Source: Leucosporidium creatinivorum
Lineage: Eukaryota > Basidiomycota > Microbotryomycetes > Leucosporidiales > Leucosporidiaceae
Length of the DNA: 64,000 nt
Direction of reading: 5' to 3'
Assembly (NCBI GenBank): GCA_001600635.1
Contig: BCKL01000012.1
Location: 558,001-622,000 of the forward strand
Each line of letters begins with the position of its first letter. The stretch's first letter is position 1. The position numbers were made by a program, and so were the translations under genes. Shown here piece by piece: positions 49,425 to 58,418 of the stretch. Under the pieces are notes generated by a model. The model had not been told where the DNA came from. It saw only the letters and a list, made by a program, of their open reading frames with translations, and ran no database searches.

Positions 49425-49782
49425 CTAGAACTCTTCAGCCGCCTCCGCTCCACAGATACAGCAGCAGATGCTCTGTTTGGTCGAAGTACGGGGTCAGCTC
49501 TCGTTCGGCCTTGCTGCCTCGGCTCCCACAAGCTGCGAGAGCACGAGTAGTATCAAAAGGAATCAAGCTCACCTCAAACAACCAACAGCACAACAGACAT
49601 CTGCACAAATCGCCGCAGCAGCCTGCTCCTTTGAGCCTGAGCGTCTCCTCGGTCTCTTGAGCTTGCTCGGAGGACTGTTGAGGAGTGGGAGTGGGAGAGT
49701 GGCTAGCGGACATGCTGTTGGTGAGAGTGGGCTGCTGCTGGGCCGAGTCGGAGGAGTTGGTGGGCGAGGAAGAGGCGGCCAT
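49425..49782 (-). CDS. Small Cys-block protein (CYSTM-like), member 1
   Basis: Two exons: 49782-49573 and 49472-49425; 85 residues. Residues 1-47 are Ser/Thr/Gln/Pro-rich and disordered; then LRLKGAGCCGDLCRCLLCCW (48-67) and, across a phase-0 intron, LFE-SICCCICGAEAAEEF. Ten Cys lie in the last 31 residues. The pattern resembles CYSTM-type tail-anchored stress proteins, whose Cys-rich hydrophobic end sits in the plasma membrane (family knowledge; the match here is by eye). It shares the L-x-L-(R/K)-G-x-G lead-in and the intron just after the Cys block with the genes at 53763-54151 and 54398-54755. Confidence 0.7.
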
Positions 49783-50236
49783 TGTTGCGAGAGCTGGGGC
49801 GGCGAGCGAGTCAGCGGTTGAAGGAGAGAAGAGGTGGCTATGAGCTTACCTGTAGTGGAGCCGAAAGAGCTGAAAGAGTGCGAGTACGAGAGGCAGGAGC
49901 AGAGACAAGCAGCGAGCCCTCGAGAACAGCGAGTCCGGTTGCTGCGAGCAACACCGCCTTCCCCGGAGAGCGCGCCTAGGATAGCACAGCGAGCAGCATA
50001 GAAGAAAGGAGGTGCATGTAGGGCTGTACGAGCAGACGAAAGAGCTGTAACGAAGCAGAATGCCGTTCGAGGGTCAGCTCGGCGGAGGGATACCGCCAAG
50101 CCTCTGCGGCACCCAGGGCAAACAGGCCCCCCGCGCGCATTGACTAAGTAAATTTCTATTGATCGACATTTCCCAATACAAAAGCTGAATTACCCTCGCC
50201 GCGAAACTGTCGAAGTCCAACGCCGAGATTCCTGCC
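49783..50236. other. Intergenic region
   Basis: The gap lies between two minus-strand genes. A donor-like GTAAGCTCA (minus, near 49850) and acceptor-like sequence just before the ATG at 49782 suggest a 5' UTR intron for the Cys-block gene, as is common here. Nothing else is recognised. Confidence 0.4.
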
Positions 50237-50583
50237 TTACCGTCCTCCTACATCGCCGAGCGCGCCGAGCTGCTTCTTCCAGGCCTCAACGAAGGGTATA
50301 TCTGGCTCTTGGCGAAGTCCCGAGCCTGTAAGACATCATACGAGTCTTCTGTAGGCTTTTCAAGACACCTGTAGTGCTCTCGGTCTTCCCCAAATTCCCC
50401 TTTCCATGTATGAGCTCGAAGCGAGCCCGGTACTGTGTGTAGAAGGGTACACACCGCTGAGAGTCTTCGCCGAGCAAGGTAACTCCTTGTGAACTTGAGA
50501 AAAGTGATTACAAAAAGCTTACTTCGGTCGATGCGAGCCAAGGGGCCTGGTTGCCCTGGGTTCTCCGGCGGCCAAGTCCGCAT
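50237..50583 (-). CDS. Small spliced protein, unknown
   Basis: Three exons: 50583-50523, 50485-50369, 50325-50237; 88 residues. The joined protein starts MRTWPPENPGQPGPLARIDR, continues VTLLGEDSQRCVPFYTQYRA and ends PDIPFVEAWKKQLGALGDVG. All three pieces have balanced composition, quite unlike the low-complexity shadow frames around, and the phases fit. The introns are very short (37 and 43 nt) and the acceptors are CACAAG and TTACAG. I do not recognise the family. The gene is divergent from the von Willebrand A gene with 114 bases between the ATGs. Confidence 0.55.
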
Positions 50584-50697
50584 GATGAGAGGTCAAAGCG
50601 CTGAGCTCCTCTCCTTCCTTCGCTTCAACTCGTCTCGTCAAAGGGTCGACTACAGCATCAACTACCAACCTACCAACCTAACGAACTACCAGCAATC
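50584..50697. promoter_or_regulatory. Short divergent promoter
   Basis: 114 bases separate the start codons of the 88-residue gene (minus) and the von Willebrand A gene (plus). The right part (ACTACCAACCTACCAACC) is a C/A-rich leader. Shared regulation is inference. Confidence 0.45.
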
Positions 50698-53227
50698 ATG
50701 GTGAGCTTGCCTCGCAGAGAAAGGCGACGTCACTTCCGCCTCTTCCGATACTAACTCGCTGTTCTGTTGCTGTACATGAGGGGTTGGCAAGCAAGCTCCA
50801 AGCGGCGTCTTCTGCCGGTAATGCTGCTACTCCCGGGTACGGAGGAGCGCCTCCTGCTCAACAGCAGCAATACGGCGCGCCCCCTCCCCAGCAACAGCCT
50901 TCCTACGGCGCTCCAGCTCAGCAGGGATCGTATGGAGGACAGCAGCAGGGTCAGTATGGCCAACAGGGTGAGCTTCTCGCGTTTGGGAACGTGGGATGAT
51001 GTAGGAAAGTCAGGAGAAGTGAGAACTCGGCATGTTGGCTGAGCGGGGAGATCCAGAGATGAGGAGCGATTTGGGTGCAGAAAATTCGCGGAAACGTTAC
51101 ATAGGATTGTTCTAGGCTTCAGGATGATGTCGCTGACCTCTAAGTTTGCCTACAGCTCAAGCCTACGGCCAGAAGCCCGCCCAGTCTTCCTACGCCCCTC
51201 CCTCGGGCCCTCCTCCTCCCGGCGGTCCTCGTCCTGGTTGTCCGTTCTACCTGTTTCCTACTTGTCTACCAAGATCAAGCTGACCGAGGTCTCCTACAGC
51301 CACCGGCGGCTACGCTCCTCCCTCGGGCGCTCCTCCTTCGTACGGGGGACAGCCTCAGCAGCAAGGCCAGTACGGCCAGCCTCAACAGGGTGGTCAGTAC
51401 GGCCAATCCCCTCAACAGGGTGGTCAGTACGGCCAGCCCCAGCAGCAGGGTACGTCTCCCGTCGTTCTGCTTCGGCTCGGCGTTCGACTTAGGCGCAAGG
51501 GGTCGGCTTACTCACCTTTTCTTACTCCACAGGCTACGGCCAACCTCCCCAGCACCAGGGACAACAGTCCTACGGCGCTCCTCAAGGTCAACAGGGTGGC
51601 TACGGAGGACAACAGCAGCAAGGCGGATATGTTCCCCCTCCTCAGCACCAGCAGGGACCCGCTCCCACTGGAGGACCCAACGCTCAGCAGATCCTGGAAA
51701 TCTTCAAGCAGGCTGTTCTTGATCAGGTGCGTCCCAGCGACGACTCGGCTTGCTCCTCATCGTGCTCGGCGTTCGCTGACCGTCTATCTCCTTCGCCTCC
51801 TCCTCCTACACCCTTCCTTCAACCCACCGACGCTCGTCTCACATCCAGAACATTCAATCCTTCTACCCTCCCGGCACCCTCGAGCCTCTCTCGCAAGCCG
51901 TCGCCAACTCTGGAGCCCTCGCCCGTGTCGCCGCCGAGTGGAAGTTGCCCATGGAGATCGCTTCCGACCTCGTCAAATTGGCCTTGTTCGACGTCATTTT
52001 GTACTGTGATGATTCGGGGTCGATGGGTGAGTCACCGCTTCTCATCTCGAGACTCATTTCGGACGAGATGGGCGCGCCGAGCCAGATGGAGAGCTGACAA
52101 TTCGACTTTGACAGCCTTCGAGGAGGGAGGATCCAGGATCGACGACCTCAAGCTCATCATCTCGCGTGTCGCCTACGCCGCTTCGCTCTTCGATCAGGAT
52201 GGAATCCAGGTGCGCATTGTCGGCGCCTAGCTTCCTCGCTTCAACCTCCTGAGGTCGACCTGCAGCTGACCTCCTCCTCTTCCACCATTGTCCCCTACAC
52301 TACTTCGCATCTCACACACCAATCCCTCTCTCTTTGCCCCTTGTCACCCGCTCCTCTCTCTTTCGTCGACGACTTCACCTGTTCGGCCCTCGTTCCCCTC
52401 CCTCCCCGTCCACTCCGCCACCTCACCCACTCCTCGCCACCTCACCCAACAGGTCCGCTTCATGAACTCCCGCGTCGAAGGCAACGGCATCAACTCGGAA
52501 GCCGCTGCCATGCAGCTCGTCAACCAAGTCAAGTTCTCCGGACTCACTCCCCTCGGCACCGCCCTCGACAGCAAGATCATCCAGCCTCTTGTCATGGGAC
52601 CTGCTAGGCAGGGAAGGTTGACCAAGCCCGTCTTGATCATTGCTGTCACCGATGGAGTGCCCGGAGGAGAGGACCGCTACGCCATCGTCAAGGCTATCAT
52701 CGCCGCCAACCGCGAGCTCGCCAGGACTAGGTATGGCTCCGACGCCCTCTCTTACCAGCTCGCGCAAGTCGGCAACGACCAGAAGGCCCGCGCGTTCCTG
52801 GAGGAGATTGACAAGCACCCCGAGATTGGAGGACTCGTCGACGTGAGTTCCGCCGAGCGCCGAGATTCCGAGCTAAGTTGCTGACTGGATGCTTCTGTAG
52901 TGCACTTCCAACTACGAGAACGAGGCTGATGATAGTGAGTAGCTTTCTGTCTCTCTGCACGGGATCAAGCTGACCGCTTTTGACCCCTCGCAGTGCTCAA
53001 GGCCAAACCTCCGTGAGTCGCGCTTGTCCCTCTTCTACACCCCATCATATGATGGCATTGCCTCCCTATACATACACATCGACTTCACATATGATACCCC
53101 TTTTTTTGGGCACTCTGGGCGCTCGCTGACCCACTTTGCTCTCAGCGTCGACTTGACGCCCGAGCTTTGGCTGGTGAAGCTTTTGATGGGGGGTATCGAT
53201 TCGAGCTATGATACTCAGGACGAGTGA
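50698..53227 (+). CDS. von Willebrand factor A-domain protein with Gln/Gly/Tyr-rich N-terminus
   Basis: Eleven exons: 50698-50700, 50781-50967, 51156-51236, 51300-51449, 51533-51726, 51849-52026, 52115-52209, 52453-52842, 52901-52934, 52994-53012, 53146-53227; 470 residues. The first exon is the ATG alone; the next begins GLASKLQAA, so the protein starts MG and could be N-myristoylated. Residues ~20-190 are Q/G/Y/P repeats (GGQYGQ, QQGGYGGQQQQ), prion-like in composition. The vWA domain starts near 245 with the metal-ion motif in LYCDDSGSM (DxSxS); LTPLGTALDSKI and IIAVTDGVPGG are further vWA strands. Related proteins are widespread in fungi, with roles poorly known; metal-dependent protein binding is expected. 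The intron 52210-52452 is long (243 nt). The intron 53013-53145 contains the palindrome ATCATATGAT. Confidence 0.88.
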
Positions 53228-53762
53228 ACAACCGCCAGTAAGGGGAACCCATGCCAATTTTTTTTAACCGTCCTCAAGACTGACGCTCTCCTGCATTTTC
53301 AGATGAGCGCCGAGTTGGCGCCGACTTGCTTGAGGATAGGGCTGATAGCGATGGAGGAGGCGGTCATAAGACAGGAACTGGAAAGCAGTGTGTACAGAGT
53401 CACTCGGCAGCTGGAGAGCACAGTGAGCGAACGAACCCGCTGTGAGAAAGCAGACGAAAGCGAGCTCGGCCAAGAGGAACTCGGCGACAACAGCCTCATC
53501 AGCCGCCGTGTCATGGCTCATCGGGAGCTTGTTGAGAGTGGGCTACGATTGCCCTGCTCTCCTACAGCCGTCCCTGTTTTCGTACAGACTCGAGGCGAAC
53601 GACGGCGGACCGGCAGCGAGGAGGCAGTGCAGAAGCCAGCGCTCCGAAGTCGAAGTTGCATGACCTCACTACAGGGGAGCTAATGCTGCAGGGGAATCAG
53701 CAGAAGAGGTTGTTTCTGCTCTTTCCCTCCCACCACTCTCTGCACTCAATCGACTTCGCGCG
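53228..53762. other. Intergenic region with an open frame of doubtful value
   Basis: An ATG frame at 53303-53683 (MSAELAPTCLRIGLIAMEEA) follows an acceptor-like CATTTTCAG with a branch-like ACTGAC, so a 3' UTR intron of the upstream gene is possible: splicing GACGA to ATGA would leave the same C-terminus. The frame itself lacks support and is not called as a gene. Confidence 0.35.
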
Positions 53763-54151
53763 ATGCTTGCCCCCTCTTCCAACGCCGAGCTCGCAACCTT
53801 CCCACCTTCGCCTTCTCCACCTGCCCCAGCACACCTCCAAAGCTCGCAACCCACCCAAATCCCATCCATGAACTTCCGCTCAGCTCCCACACCCTCAGCA
53901 AACCCGGAGCAGCTCTTCCAACAGGCCGAAACGAATGCCAAATCTCTTCGCTTACGCGGCGGAGGCTGCTGGTGCTGTTGCTGTGGATGCGGGGTGAGTT
54001 GGTTGAATTTGAAGAGTAGAGCTGGAGCTGACTTTGAACCCTGTAGAACAACGACGAGCGCCCTTTGACGGTGGAGGAGAAGAAGAAGAAGAGCAAGCGG
54101 AACGGGGCCATTGCTGCTGCTGCTGCTTCGTCGTCTGTTTTCGCGGGTTGA
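53763..54151 (+). CDS. Small Cys-block protein with LRLRGG motif, member 2
   Basis: Two exons: 53763-53993 and 54047-54151; 111 residues (an internal Met at 36 is an alternative start). Residues 1-61 are Pro/Ser-rich with a short helix-like part (PEQLFQQAETNAKS). Residues 62-77 read LRLRGGGCWCCCCGCG. The first six are identical to the last six of ubiquitin, but no ubiquitin fold precedes them. After a phase-0 intron comes a Lys-rich tail (NNDERPLTVEEKKKKSKRN) and an Ala-rich end. The Cys block could be S-acylated or bind metal (inference). It is a clear paralogue of the gene 250 bases downstream. Confidence 0.75.
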
Positions 54152-54397
54152 TAAGATGTCTAGGAGATGTACTGGTGCACAACATCTGCGTATAATCATA
54201 TTGAAGAGTGTGAGCCAAGTGAGTGAATGCGGTGCCATCGCCGAGATTCGTCGGGCGTGCTAGTGAGGCGAGCTTGGCTGTTGAGAAGCCTGACTCGACG
54301 ATGCTAGAGATAGCCGTACAGCTCAAATGTAGTAACGCTGCTCTCCCTCTCTCGTTCCGCTCTCCTCGCCAAGTTCGGCCTCTCCTCCTACTTCACC

Positions 54398-54755
54398 ATG
54401 CCCGAGCCTCCCGAATATCCTCCAGCAGCCATCTTGCACGGCTTGCAGCCTTCCAGCACACCTCAAATGTCGTTCGCTTCGTCAACCACTGTCAAACCAA
54501 TCATCATGAGCGACGGACACCGAACTCAGCTCGCCGAAATGAAGGCCGAAGCGCTCCAGCTGCGTGGTGGGGGCTGCTGGTATTGCTGTTGCGGGTGTGG
54601 GGTAAGTGCTGGGACACACAGCAGTAAATGAGACTTCAAGATGATGACCGTGTGGCCTATAGGACTCGTACGGGGCGCCGCCGAGCAAGCAGAAGAAGAA
54701 GAAGGACTACAGCTCGACCTATATTGTACCGGTGCTCGGTACTGGGGGTTGCTAG
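54398..54755 (+). CDS. Small Cys-block protein, member 3
   Basis: Two exons: 54398-54601 and 54663-54755; 98 residues. The disordered N-terminus ends MSDGHRTQLAEMKAEA, followed by LQLRGGGCWYCCCGCG (53-68) and, after a phase-0 intron at the same point as in member 2, DSYGAPPSKQKKKKDYSSTY and a final GTGGC. Tandem with member 2: same strand, same intron site, same Cys block followed by a Lys run. The two probably arose by local duplication. Function unknown; the family hint is as for member 2. Confidence 0.75.
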
Positions 54756-55786
54756 AAGGCGTCAGAGTCATCTGCACCTGATCATGTGATGGCAAACGCC
54801 CTCGTTGAGCTGTGGCAGACGCTCGCAAGCTCGGCGCCGAACTGGCGAAGGGTGAAGTTTGGAGCGCTGGTCCAGAGATGGACAATGCTCAAGAAGATCC
54901 TGACCTGTACGAGACCTCTCGCTGCCCCCGCTCGAGATCATCTCTTTCGCCCCTGCGAGCTGCCTCCTCGCCGTCGCGCGTCGCTCTCGCTCTTCCTCTC
55001 CCGCTTTTTCGCTCTTCTCGTCATCTCGCCTGCTCGACACTACCGGCACGGTAGCTGATCCCTAGGGTCCTACCTAGGCCGTCACCCACCAGCTTACGCT
55101 CGCAGAGGCTACAGCTCGCCAACGCTCGGTATCGACTCGAAGCGGCGCGCTCGACCAAATTGGATCAGGAAGCAGGCTTGCGCTACTTGGAAGACAGCAG
55201 TAGGACGATTAAGGTCTAGCTGAGGACCTGCAGAGTGCTCAAGGATTCTGCGAGGACTACAGAACAGGTGAGAATCAGTGCAGAGGCATCGATGAGCTGG
55301 AGGTGCTGGAGACGTTGAGGTGAGGGCTGGCGAGGGCTGAGCTTTACCGGAGCATGCAGAGCATGCTCTAGTGCAGCTCTTCGGTCCCTTCGTCTGGCAT
55401 TGCCACCCCAGCGCTTCCTTTCAGTTCGAAAAGACGCGATGAGGGTCGGTCGAGTCGATGCTGGTCGGCGGGACCGCCGCAGAGTGCTGTACAGTGCAGA
55501 CGTGCTGTACCGCTCCCTGATACTTGGCGTCTTGCGAGGCCAGCAAGTCGCCTTGCGCGCGAGCAGCGCGCGAGTCGCTGTTCCCGACCCGACCGTGGCG
55601 GCGTGTGCTGAGGATGTTGCTGGAGGTGCAGAGCTGGTCGATGCACCGAGTCTGAACTCGAGCTTGAATGTGCCAGAAGCAGTGCTGTGGCTGCTCCCTG
55701 TGGTCAACTTTGCCTCCAAGCGCCTCCCGAACGACCGCTGATTCTCAATTCTCCGACTTCCAGGCTACCTAAGGCCCTCACACAAA
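54756..55786. other. Intergenic region
   Basis: A 1-kb gap upstream of the kinase gene. A 167-codon minus-strand frame (55216-55719) and several plus-strand frames overlap without a clear winner; all are Ala/Arg/Ser-biased. The last 50 bases before 55787 are the kinase leader. I see no gene I can support. Confidence 0.4.
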
Positions 55787-58418
55787 ATGGCCAACTCCTT
55801 TCATAACCTCCCCTCGGCCTTCACTCCACTTACGCCAACAGCAACGCCACCCGGCACTTCCTCCAATACCTCGTCGTCGCTCTCCTCCGAAACCTCGTCA
55901 ATCGTCTCTCGGCAATCCTCTACCCGTTCGACAGCCTCGGTCGTTGCCGTACCGATTCGCAAGCCTGTACGACGTCCCGCTCATGCACCCCTGAGCCGAG
56001 CCAACAGCAGCGGCATCGGTCGAGGGTTCGACTCGAGCAGCGTCTCGGTCGTCACGCCTGCGCCGACACATCTCCCAGCTGGTACAGGAGGCAGCTATTT
56101 TGCAGGGGCTCTCAACAGCGGAGCGCCACCGATGCGGAGAGGGTCGTCGGGAGAAGGCTCGGCGATGCGTACGCCGCCAGGGAGCGGCGCCGATTCGAGG
56201 ATGGGCGATTGGACGGCAGTAGGGGCAGCAGTCAGGAGCATGAATGTGGGGCAGGACGATACACCGACACGGCCCAGTGCCGATAGATCGTCCTCGTCGG
56301 CGACGACACAGCCTGCGAGTCGGCCGACGAGGGAAAGGGATGGGTCGACGAGCAGCGTGACGCTGATCCGGAAAACGGTGGGCGACTTTACGGTCGGAGA
56401 GACGTTGGGGGAAGGTTCGTACAGCACGGTGAACTTCCCTCGCCTCCCGAGTCGCCGATACAGGAGCTGACACTGTCCATTTGCCTCGGCGCAGGTCTCG
56501 CTCGTCACCGACAAGCACTCTCCGCATCGTTCCTACGCCCTCAAGATGCTAGACAAGGATCATATCAAGCGCGAGAAGAAGACCAAGTATGTGCTTATAG
56601 AACGCGATACGCTCAAGACTCTCGATGGACATCCTGGGATTGTGAGGCTGTATTGGACGTTTCAAGACCAGCGGAGCCTCTGTGCGTGTTCTGCTCTCCC
56701 TTTTTCATTTCCGATCGCACATCGCTGACCTCTCCGCACCACCAGACTACGTGCTCGAACTCGCCAAGAACGGCGAGCTGCTCAAGTGGATCAAGAAGGC
56801 GAGTCTGTCCTCTCATGCTGCTTCGGCTTCGGCCTCGATCCAAATCACTTACCGCTGCTCTCCCTTACAGTTCGGCTCGTTCCACCTCCCCTCCGCCCGC
56901 TTCTACGCCGCTCAAATCCTCAGCGCCGTCGAGCACATGCACAGCAAGGGCGTCATCCACCGCGACCTCAAACCCGAGAAGTATGTCACTCGCTTTGCTA
57001 TCGCTGAGTTGCGCTGACCGCCCCTCATAAACAGCATCCTCCTCGACGATAAGATGCGCGTCAAGATTACCGACTTCGGGACGGCCAAGCTGCAGACGAC
57101 GGCGGCTAAGGAGGTCGAGGAGGGTACGTCGGATGTCAGAACCGTTCTCGAGTTCTTCTCTGATGTTTCTTGCGCTTCTACAGATCCCGCACAACCTCGG
57201 TCAAGGTCCTTCGTCGGCACGCCCGAGTACGTCTCGCCCGAGATTCTCTCGGAGAAGAAGGAGTCGTCCCCATCGTGCGTTCTCCAGTCTTGCCCTAGCT
57301 CTCCCGCTCCATTGCTGACCTATCTCGTCACGCAGATCCGATTACTGGGGCTTTGGCTGCATCCTCTACCAGATCCTCGCCGGTCGACCGCCCTTCCAAG
57401 CTCGAACAGAGTACCTGATGTTCCAGAAGATCATCAACCTCGAGTACGAGTTCCCGCTCGGCTTCCCAGCAGACGCCAAGGATCTTGTCGAGAAGCTACT
57501 GGTCAGCTCCTTCCTCTTCTCGGCTCTCGAGCGCACGACTAAGTCGCTCTCTCGCTCGAACAGGTCGTCGATCCTCGTGAGCGACTAGGTGGAGGACCCG
57601 AAGGCGTTGCCGCCATCAAAGCTCACCCCTTCTTCACCGCCTGCGACCCACCCATCGACTTCTTAACCATCTGGACGATCGATCCACCTGCCATCGAGAC
57701 TGGCATCGCCGAGCCAAAGAAGGAGATCAAGGGCGAGTTCGTGCTGTTGGATGAGTTTGGAGCCGAGTACGGGGATGAGGATGATGAGAGCGTGGGCAGT
57801 GGGGGCGAGGAGAGCGGGCGGAGAAGCGATAGCTATGAGAGCGAGCGGGATGTGGCGAGTAGTATGGGACGGACGAGCGATGATGGACCGAGAACGAAGT
57901 GGTGAGTCGCTGCCCTCCCGCATTTCTTCTCTCGAGCGGAGCTGACCTCGGCTCGCACTCGAAAAGGACCGGCATCCTCCTCCCCACCGAGACCATCGTC
58001 TTCGCCTCCCCCGTCCTCGTCCGGCGCGGTCTCTTCACCAAGAAGCGCTCCCTCATCCTCACCGACTACCCTCGACTCATTTGCATCAAGGACGCACCGA
58101 CCAAGGTCACCCTCAAGAGCGAGGTCTTCGTCGGCGCGGCACTCAAGGGGGGAGTCACCAAGCCCGGGGCTGTAGCCTTCATCCGGGCCGAGAAGGAGGG
58201 TGATCGGGGTATCGTGATCAAGACTGTGAGTCGTCGCTGCCGTTAATTTTCGCGGGCGACACCCTCCTTCGTCCTCGACTCTCGCTGACCCGTCTCGCCG
58301 GATACCACAGTCCCAGCAGACCTACAAGTACGAAGAACCGACCGGAGCAGCTGGTCGATGGGTCGACGAGCTACGAGAGGCGCATGCACAAGGGCTTAGA
58401 GCGCCGGCTGGCCGGTGA
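55787..58418 (+). CDS. PDK1-like AGC protein kinase with C-terminal PH domain (Pkh family)
   Basis: Ten exons: 55787-56428, 56495-56681, 56746-56798, 56871-56980, 57035-57123, 57184-57274, 57336-57501, 57564-57901, 57967-58225, 58311-58418; 680 residues. A Ser/Thr-rich ~195-residue tail precedes the kinase: [12 protein letters not shown] (Gly loop, ~204-215), ALK (Lys231), HRDLKPEN (Asp326), DFG (Asp344), activation loop [12 protein letters not shown] as in PDK1, then [12 protein letters not shown]. The region from ~560 ([20 protein letters not shown]) is the PDK1-type PH domain. Fungal Pkh1/2 orthologues phosphorylate AGC kinases (Ypk, Sch9, Pkc1) in sphingolipid and wall-stress signalling at the plasma membrane; many yeast Pkh proteins lack an obvious PH domain, so its presence here is notable. 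Intron 56799-56870 has a GC donor. Confidence 0.93.

Follow-up and report, generated by a model that had tools for sequence, protein, structure and literature searches.

Three small two-exon genes, hereafter A, B and C, were identified as paralogues in a 64-kb window of the Leucosporidium creatinivorum genome (contig BCKL01000012.1, positions 558,001 to 622,000, assembly GCA_001600635.1; the window is the whole 64,000-nucleotide stretch analysed), and a six-frame search of the 27.7-Mb genome added a distant relative, D. With roughly even confidence, we propose that A, B, C and D encode short proteins on the cytosolic side of membranes, held there by an S-acylated cysteine string. The family has a common lead-in, L-x-x-[RK]-G-[GA]-x-C, leading into a Cys block in which CC/CxC spacing is dense in all four members. 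Each of the four also carries a phase-0 GTRAG donor after the block, with 16 codons from the conserved Leu to the donor in B, C and D and 23 codons in A. A first-pass annotation of the window had proposed a single gene family with a common phase-0 intron, which the searches bear out, and the open frames, peptides and LRLRGG coordinates (53946-53963) that it quoted were all exact. It had also placed the intron directly after the Cys block, which is accurate for B and C, whereas three codons (LFE) separate the quoted block of A from its donor.

In the six-frame genome search, exon 1 of B matched exon 1 of C (E 3.7e-13), exon 1 of A (E 6.4e-5) and D (E 0.015). The C query returned B at E 5.8e-11; with matches taken up to E 10, it reached only C itself and B of the four members and neither A nor D. 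The A query matched D (E 0.0013) and B (E 0.0022) and the D query matched A (E 0.0073) and B (E 0.027), with C absent from the matches listed for both. As a scale for these values, the A query also listed, at E 0.021, an Arg-rich frame (C12:563766) that looks like a chance match; D is therefore linked to the family by the common block and intron no less than by the E-values. A query built from all four blocks, and so made from the members themselves, matched A, B, C and D and nothing else up to E 10. The fungal homology searches covered this one genome, in which the weak matches at C12:116286, C12:563766, C22:357077 and C15:473686 were rejected as members for want of a clear block. The block was likewise not clear in further weak matches at C11:320902, C8:891109, C24:34431 and C23:371378, and a match at C2:1683669 (E 3.43, from the B query) was left out of the family with its sequence unread. 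A loosely similar Cys-rich sequence, LRVRLEGASLCSGCRAFLCC, was observed at C2:905257-905427 (plus strand; E 1.01 from the A query) and left out of the member count. None of the four member proteins matched NCBIfam, and B matched no PDB sequence. Viral contigs searched with the four-sequence alignment gave 28 pattern stretches and prokaryote genomes searched with B gave 592, with no relatives in either set, results that have no bearing on fungal orthologues. Among the papers listed by literature searches of an open-licence library, none was on this family.

Conservation is concentrated in the block when B and C are compared codon by codon. Across the 16-codon block, LRLRGGGCWCCCCGCG in B (53946..53993, plus) and LQLRGGGCWYCCCGCG in C (54554..54601, plus), 14 of the 16 residues agree, and 10 codons differ synonymously, two change the amino acid and four are identical. 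Counted over sites, these last 16 codons carry 12.5 synonymous changes at 10.7 sites and 2.5 non-synonymous changes at 37.3 sites; for the 13 codons preceding the block, the counts are 5.5 at 8.3 synonymous sites and 10.5 at 30.7 non-synonymous sites. The ratio of non-synonymous to synonymous substitution rates (dN/dS) was left uncomputed, as synonymous change in the block is saturated (proportion above 1), and the counts were used instead. Judged from the sequences, selection is acting to keep the block.

Gene B (53763-54151, plus strand) reads MLAPSS...ETNAKSLRLRGGGCWCCCCGCG then NNDERPLTVEEKKKKSKRNGAIAAAAASSSVFAG across a predicted phase-0 intron. Its exon 1 (53763..53993), an open frame, encodes an N-terminus without a predicted fold, one modelled helix and then the block, which has six Cys within eight residues. 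The 53-nt intron (53994..54046, GTGAGT...CTGTAG) has a branch-like GCTGACT 19 nt from its end, and the open frame of exon 2 (54047..54151) encodes NNDERPLTVEEKKKKSKRNGAIAAAAASSSVFAG and a stop, with a lysine-rich run, KKKKSKR, read directly at 54080..54100, 11 residues past the block. Gene C (54398-54755, plus strand) reads MPEPPE...AEALQLRGGGCWYCCCGCG then DSYGAPPSKQKKKKDYSSTYIVPVLGTGGC across a predicted phase-0 intron of 61 nt (54602..54662, GTAAGT...CTATAG) that has no CTRAY site. The open frame of exon 1 (54398..54601) ends in the block, with five Cys within eight residues plus a Cys as its last residue, and that of exon 2 (54663..54755) encodes DSYGAPPSKQKKKKDYSSTYIVPVLGTGGC and a stop, with the lysine-rich run KQKKKK, also a direct reading, eight residues past the block (54687..54704). 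Gene A (49782-49425, minus strand) reads MAASSSPT...ETEETLRLKGAGCCGDLCRCLLCCWLFE then SICCCICGAEAAEEF, again across a predicted phase-0 intron. Its exon 1 (49573..49782), an open frame, encodes an N-terminus without a predicted fold and then LRLKGAGCCGDLCRCLLCCWLFE, the conserved block being the 23 codons from LRLKGAG to the donor (49573..49641). In the favoured model, the phase-0 intron spans 100 nt (49473..49572) with a branch-like GCTGACC 25 nt from its end, and exon 2 (49425..49472) is an open frame encoding SICCCICGAEAAEEF and a stop; alternative acceptors giving introns of 40 or 59 nt are possible, both without a CTRAY site. The disordered N-terminus previously ascribed to all three proteins agrees with two low-confidence models of exon 1, which cover A and B only. 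The fourth relative, D (C1:1191257-1191442, minus strand), reads ...AEETDEEVLRTRGGCCVDVCCCCD then GTAAGT in phase 0, with no ATG within its open frame. The single candidate for a 5' exon, MTKRQRLSLVFLIFTRFTSSLYI (phase 0), fits no YAG acceptor in phase. With one modelled intron, the tail of D would be SCSVLVPCTIA followed by a stop; its CTIA end resembles a CaaX prenylation motif.

The proposed mode of anchoring is drawn from the composition of the blocks and their surroundings. Hydropathy, taken as the best 19-residue stretch anywhere in the protein, was 1.96 for A with the 100-nt intron (1.51 with the 40-nt intron) and 1.67 for D, with 1.92 for a comparison gene at C9 belonging to the cysteine-rich transmembrane module family CYSTM (sequence typed with one Cys missing). 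The values for B (0.43, from a stretch in the tail, so that the block of B is no higher) and C (0.42) are too low for a transmembrane helix, making lipid attachment the natural anchor for these two proteins. Clustered Cys with basic residues nearby are found in B and C; A and D have the Cys cluster but, in their favoured models, no basic run downstream of it. Genes for DHHC acyltransferases are present in the genome at six places over the Pfam cut-off, out of 12 matches in all. Under the proposed mechanism, an initial electrostatic contact between basic residues and acidic lipids would be followed by fatty acylation of the Cys by DHHC acyltransferases, and the acylated proteins would then stay on a membrane (probably the plasma membrane). 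The Cys-rich segment of A and D runs on into exon 2 in their favoured models and may insert as a helix. The Gly-Gly would serve as a flexible hinge ahead of the anchor and not as a ubiquitin tail. The cysteine-string protein, with its S-acylated Cys-rich anchor, is likened here to B and C. SNAP25 and SNAP23 are similar to B and C in combining clustered Cys, nearby basic residues and too little hydrophobicity to span a membrane, and PMC5362264 reports that their membrane contact before palmitoylation is driven by a small number of basic residues within that Cys-rich segment. The likeness extends to the anchors; A, B and C have no J-domain or SNARE match in Pfam, and no homology to these proteins is claimed.

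Several observations weigh against anchoring by S-acylation. The lysine runs of B and C are encoded by AAG-rich DNA of low complexity, and the favoured models of A and D contain none. The exon-2 tails of A and D hang on modelled acceptors, D may be incomplete or decayed, and the Cys clusters could bind metal instead.

The first-pass annotation had likened the anchors to those of CYSTM proteins (Pfam PF12734, curated cut-off 25.2 bits); the acylated anchor stands as the best reading, but only A resembles CYSTM, and below the cut-off. The score of A was 15.7 bits (E 0.017) in the less likely model with a 40-nt intron, 12 bits (E 0.24) for the last 40 residues of exon 1 and 7.9 bits for the whole of exon 1. 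There was no CYSTM match for A with the favoured 100-nt intron, nor for B, C or D at E up to 10. For comparison, the positive control, a canonical CYSTM gene at C9:351266-351334 (plus strand) with a phase-2 intron interrupting its Cys module, scored 48.9 bits when spliced and 22.1 bits unspliced, so that six-frame scans see only part of it. A second CYSTM-like gene was observed at C1:363380-363472 (minus strand), with a Q/P/Y-rich N-terminus and a Cys module that two introns appear to interrupt; it scored 19.6 bits when the genome was scanned and 8.9 bits as an incomplete spliced fragment. The family shares with CYSTM its small proteins, its dense Cys block and, in A and D, similar hydropathy, along with the weak sequence similarity of A. 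It differs in the L-x-x-[RK]-G-[GA] lead-in and in the position of the block, which is followed by 34 residues in B and 30 in C and is thus not a C-terminal tail. The phase-0 donor after the block also differs from the phase-2 intron inside the module of the C9 gene; in the C1 gene, however, the donor within the module is itself in phase 0, so CYSTM and the family cannot be told apart by phase alone. According to passages of PMC10217909, CYSTM proteins of S. cerevisiae are tail-anchored, stress-induced and Cys-rich, and the module features a run of three to four consecutive Cys with an acidic residue after the Cys-rich helix. The corresponding stretches here are CCCC then GCG in B, CCC then GCG in C, CCCCD in D and CCWLFE in A. 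The acylation idea is not borrowed from the CYSTM literature, as neither 'palmitoyl' nor 'S-acyl' occurs in the main text of the plant CYSTM papers PMC8049917 and PMC10030403.

It is rather unlikely, though worth weighing, that A, B, C and D are divergent members of the CYSTM superfamily, tail-anchored by a Cys-rich helix spanning the membrane. The CYSTM scores of A would fit this explanation, as would the hydropathy of A and D and the presence of a canonical CYSTM gene in the same genome, and none of 10 shuffles of the A block matched any family. However, no member reaches the cut-off, the unrelated HEAT_GCN1 family matched the exon-1 stretch of A slightly better by E-value (E 0.18 vs 0.24), and the blocks of B and C are too polar, and too short, to cross a membrane. 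With B, C and D unmatched and A under the cut-off, these profile scores do not place the family within CYSTM, to which A may nonetheless be a remote link. Binding of Cu, Zn or Mn by the Cys block, as a metallothionein-like or knuckle element, is unlikely. The dense Cys spacing is in keeping with such a role, and passages of PMC10217909 report that metals trigger the response of two yeast CYSTM genes, but the Cys of the B and C blocks are few for this purpose, and the Pfam matches of A, B and C are all sub-threshold with none to a metal-binding family (HEAT_GCN1 and CYSTM for A, none for C and, for B, CCER1 as the sole match at 14 bits against a cut-off of 27). That the open frames are non-functional, either chance frames or decayed copies, is very unlikely: the missing ATG of D would be expected of such frames, but the two-exon frames are intact in A, B and C and the synonymous bias between the blocks of B and C is strong.

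The LRLRGG of B (53946..53963), an exact copy of the ubiquitin C-terminal hexapeptide, is most likely a coincidence. Within the six frames of the window it occurs at B only. Across the genome, a pattern search for it gave 96 matches, against 168 for the reversed pattern used as a control; 44 of the 96 do encode LRLRGG, and three of these 44 form the ends of ubiquitin matches on C6 and C13. The paralogues spell the hexapeptide LQLRGG, LRLKGA and LRTRGG, with R-x-R-G-G kept in B and D. Models made with no alignment agree with the earlier statement that no beta-grasp fold precedes LRLRGG, although at low confidence: B has one helix (48-60) and no strand (mean predicted local distance difference test score, pLDDT, 60), and exon 1 of A has a helix inside the Cys block (56-68) and no strand (mean pLDDT 59). 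Pfam searches of A, B and C also gave no match to a ubiquitin family. LRLRGG is best regarded as one spelling of a looser family motif because the paralogues diverge, the models have no strand and 44 places in the genome spell it. Ubiquitin ancestry of B was considered and is rejected on the paralogue divergence, the lack of a predicted fold and the different codons, which match those of ubiquitin at a single Leu codon in the C13 copy; nor is the hexapeptide C-terminal in B. The suggestion that deubiquitinases or ubiquitin-tail binders might recognise the site is weakly supported, although an enzyme class that cuts RLRGG is encoded in the genome. A ZUFSP (Peptidase_C78) deubiquitinase-like gene, apparently of several exons, is located at C35:143635-144395 (plus strand), and a PDB search with its frame gave four distinct sequences with E no higher than 1: three were ZUFSP chains (best E 3.9e-12), the fourth was fission-yeast Mug105 (E 0.24), and no UFM1-only protease was among them. 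As described in passages of PMC8776766, the ZUFSP catalytic core is highly active on an RLRGG peptide and not on ubiquitin itself, RLRGG-AMC has also been used to assay Mug105, and Mug105 cuts K48 chains. A ZUFSP-type protease might accordingly read the LRLRGG of B, modelled at low confidence as coil after the helix, and cut after Gly-Gly to free the N-terminal part from the anchor. We consider this highly improbable, since the hexapeptide is not conserved in A and C, R-x-R-G-G is no family constraint, a Gly and then the Cys block come directly after LRLRGG, and an enzyme of this kind needs no other substrate given that fungal Mug105 does cut ubiquitin chains. Least probable is the idea that B is a membrane-anchored, unfolded ubiquitin-tail mimic whose bare LRLRGG serves the ZUFSP-type protease as a natural substrate or as a decoy.

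Two other genes were observed beside the family in the window. Between A and B, a multi-intron gene (50700-53227, plus strand) encodes a Q/G/P/Y-rich N-terminus and, by eye, a von Willebrand A-like domain (DDSGS); the one exon tested against Pfam had no match, and a CTRAY site lies 20-24 nt from the intron end in six of the nine introns delimited by eye. Downstream of C, a protein kinase gene (55778-56728) appears PDK1/PKH-like by eye and, on one exon, scored 27 bits against Pfam Pkinase, under the 31.7-bit cut-off.

If the mimic were real, an enzyme class with a core preferring naked RLRGG would gain a non-ubiquitin target, and cleavage would free the N-terminal part of B from its lipid anchor; as a coincidence, the LRLRGG offers a cheap test for non-ubiquitin substrates of ZUFSP proteases. 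For the family as a whole, a role in stress or metal tolerance may be guessed by analogy with CYSTM proteins. The family stands near CYSTM without matching it, at a size easily missed by gene finders, and if it holds in other fungi it would represent a short, lipid-anchored kind of protein in which the L-x-x-[RK]-G-[GA]-x-C lead-in is fixed.

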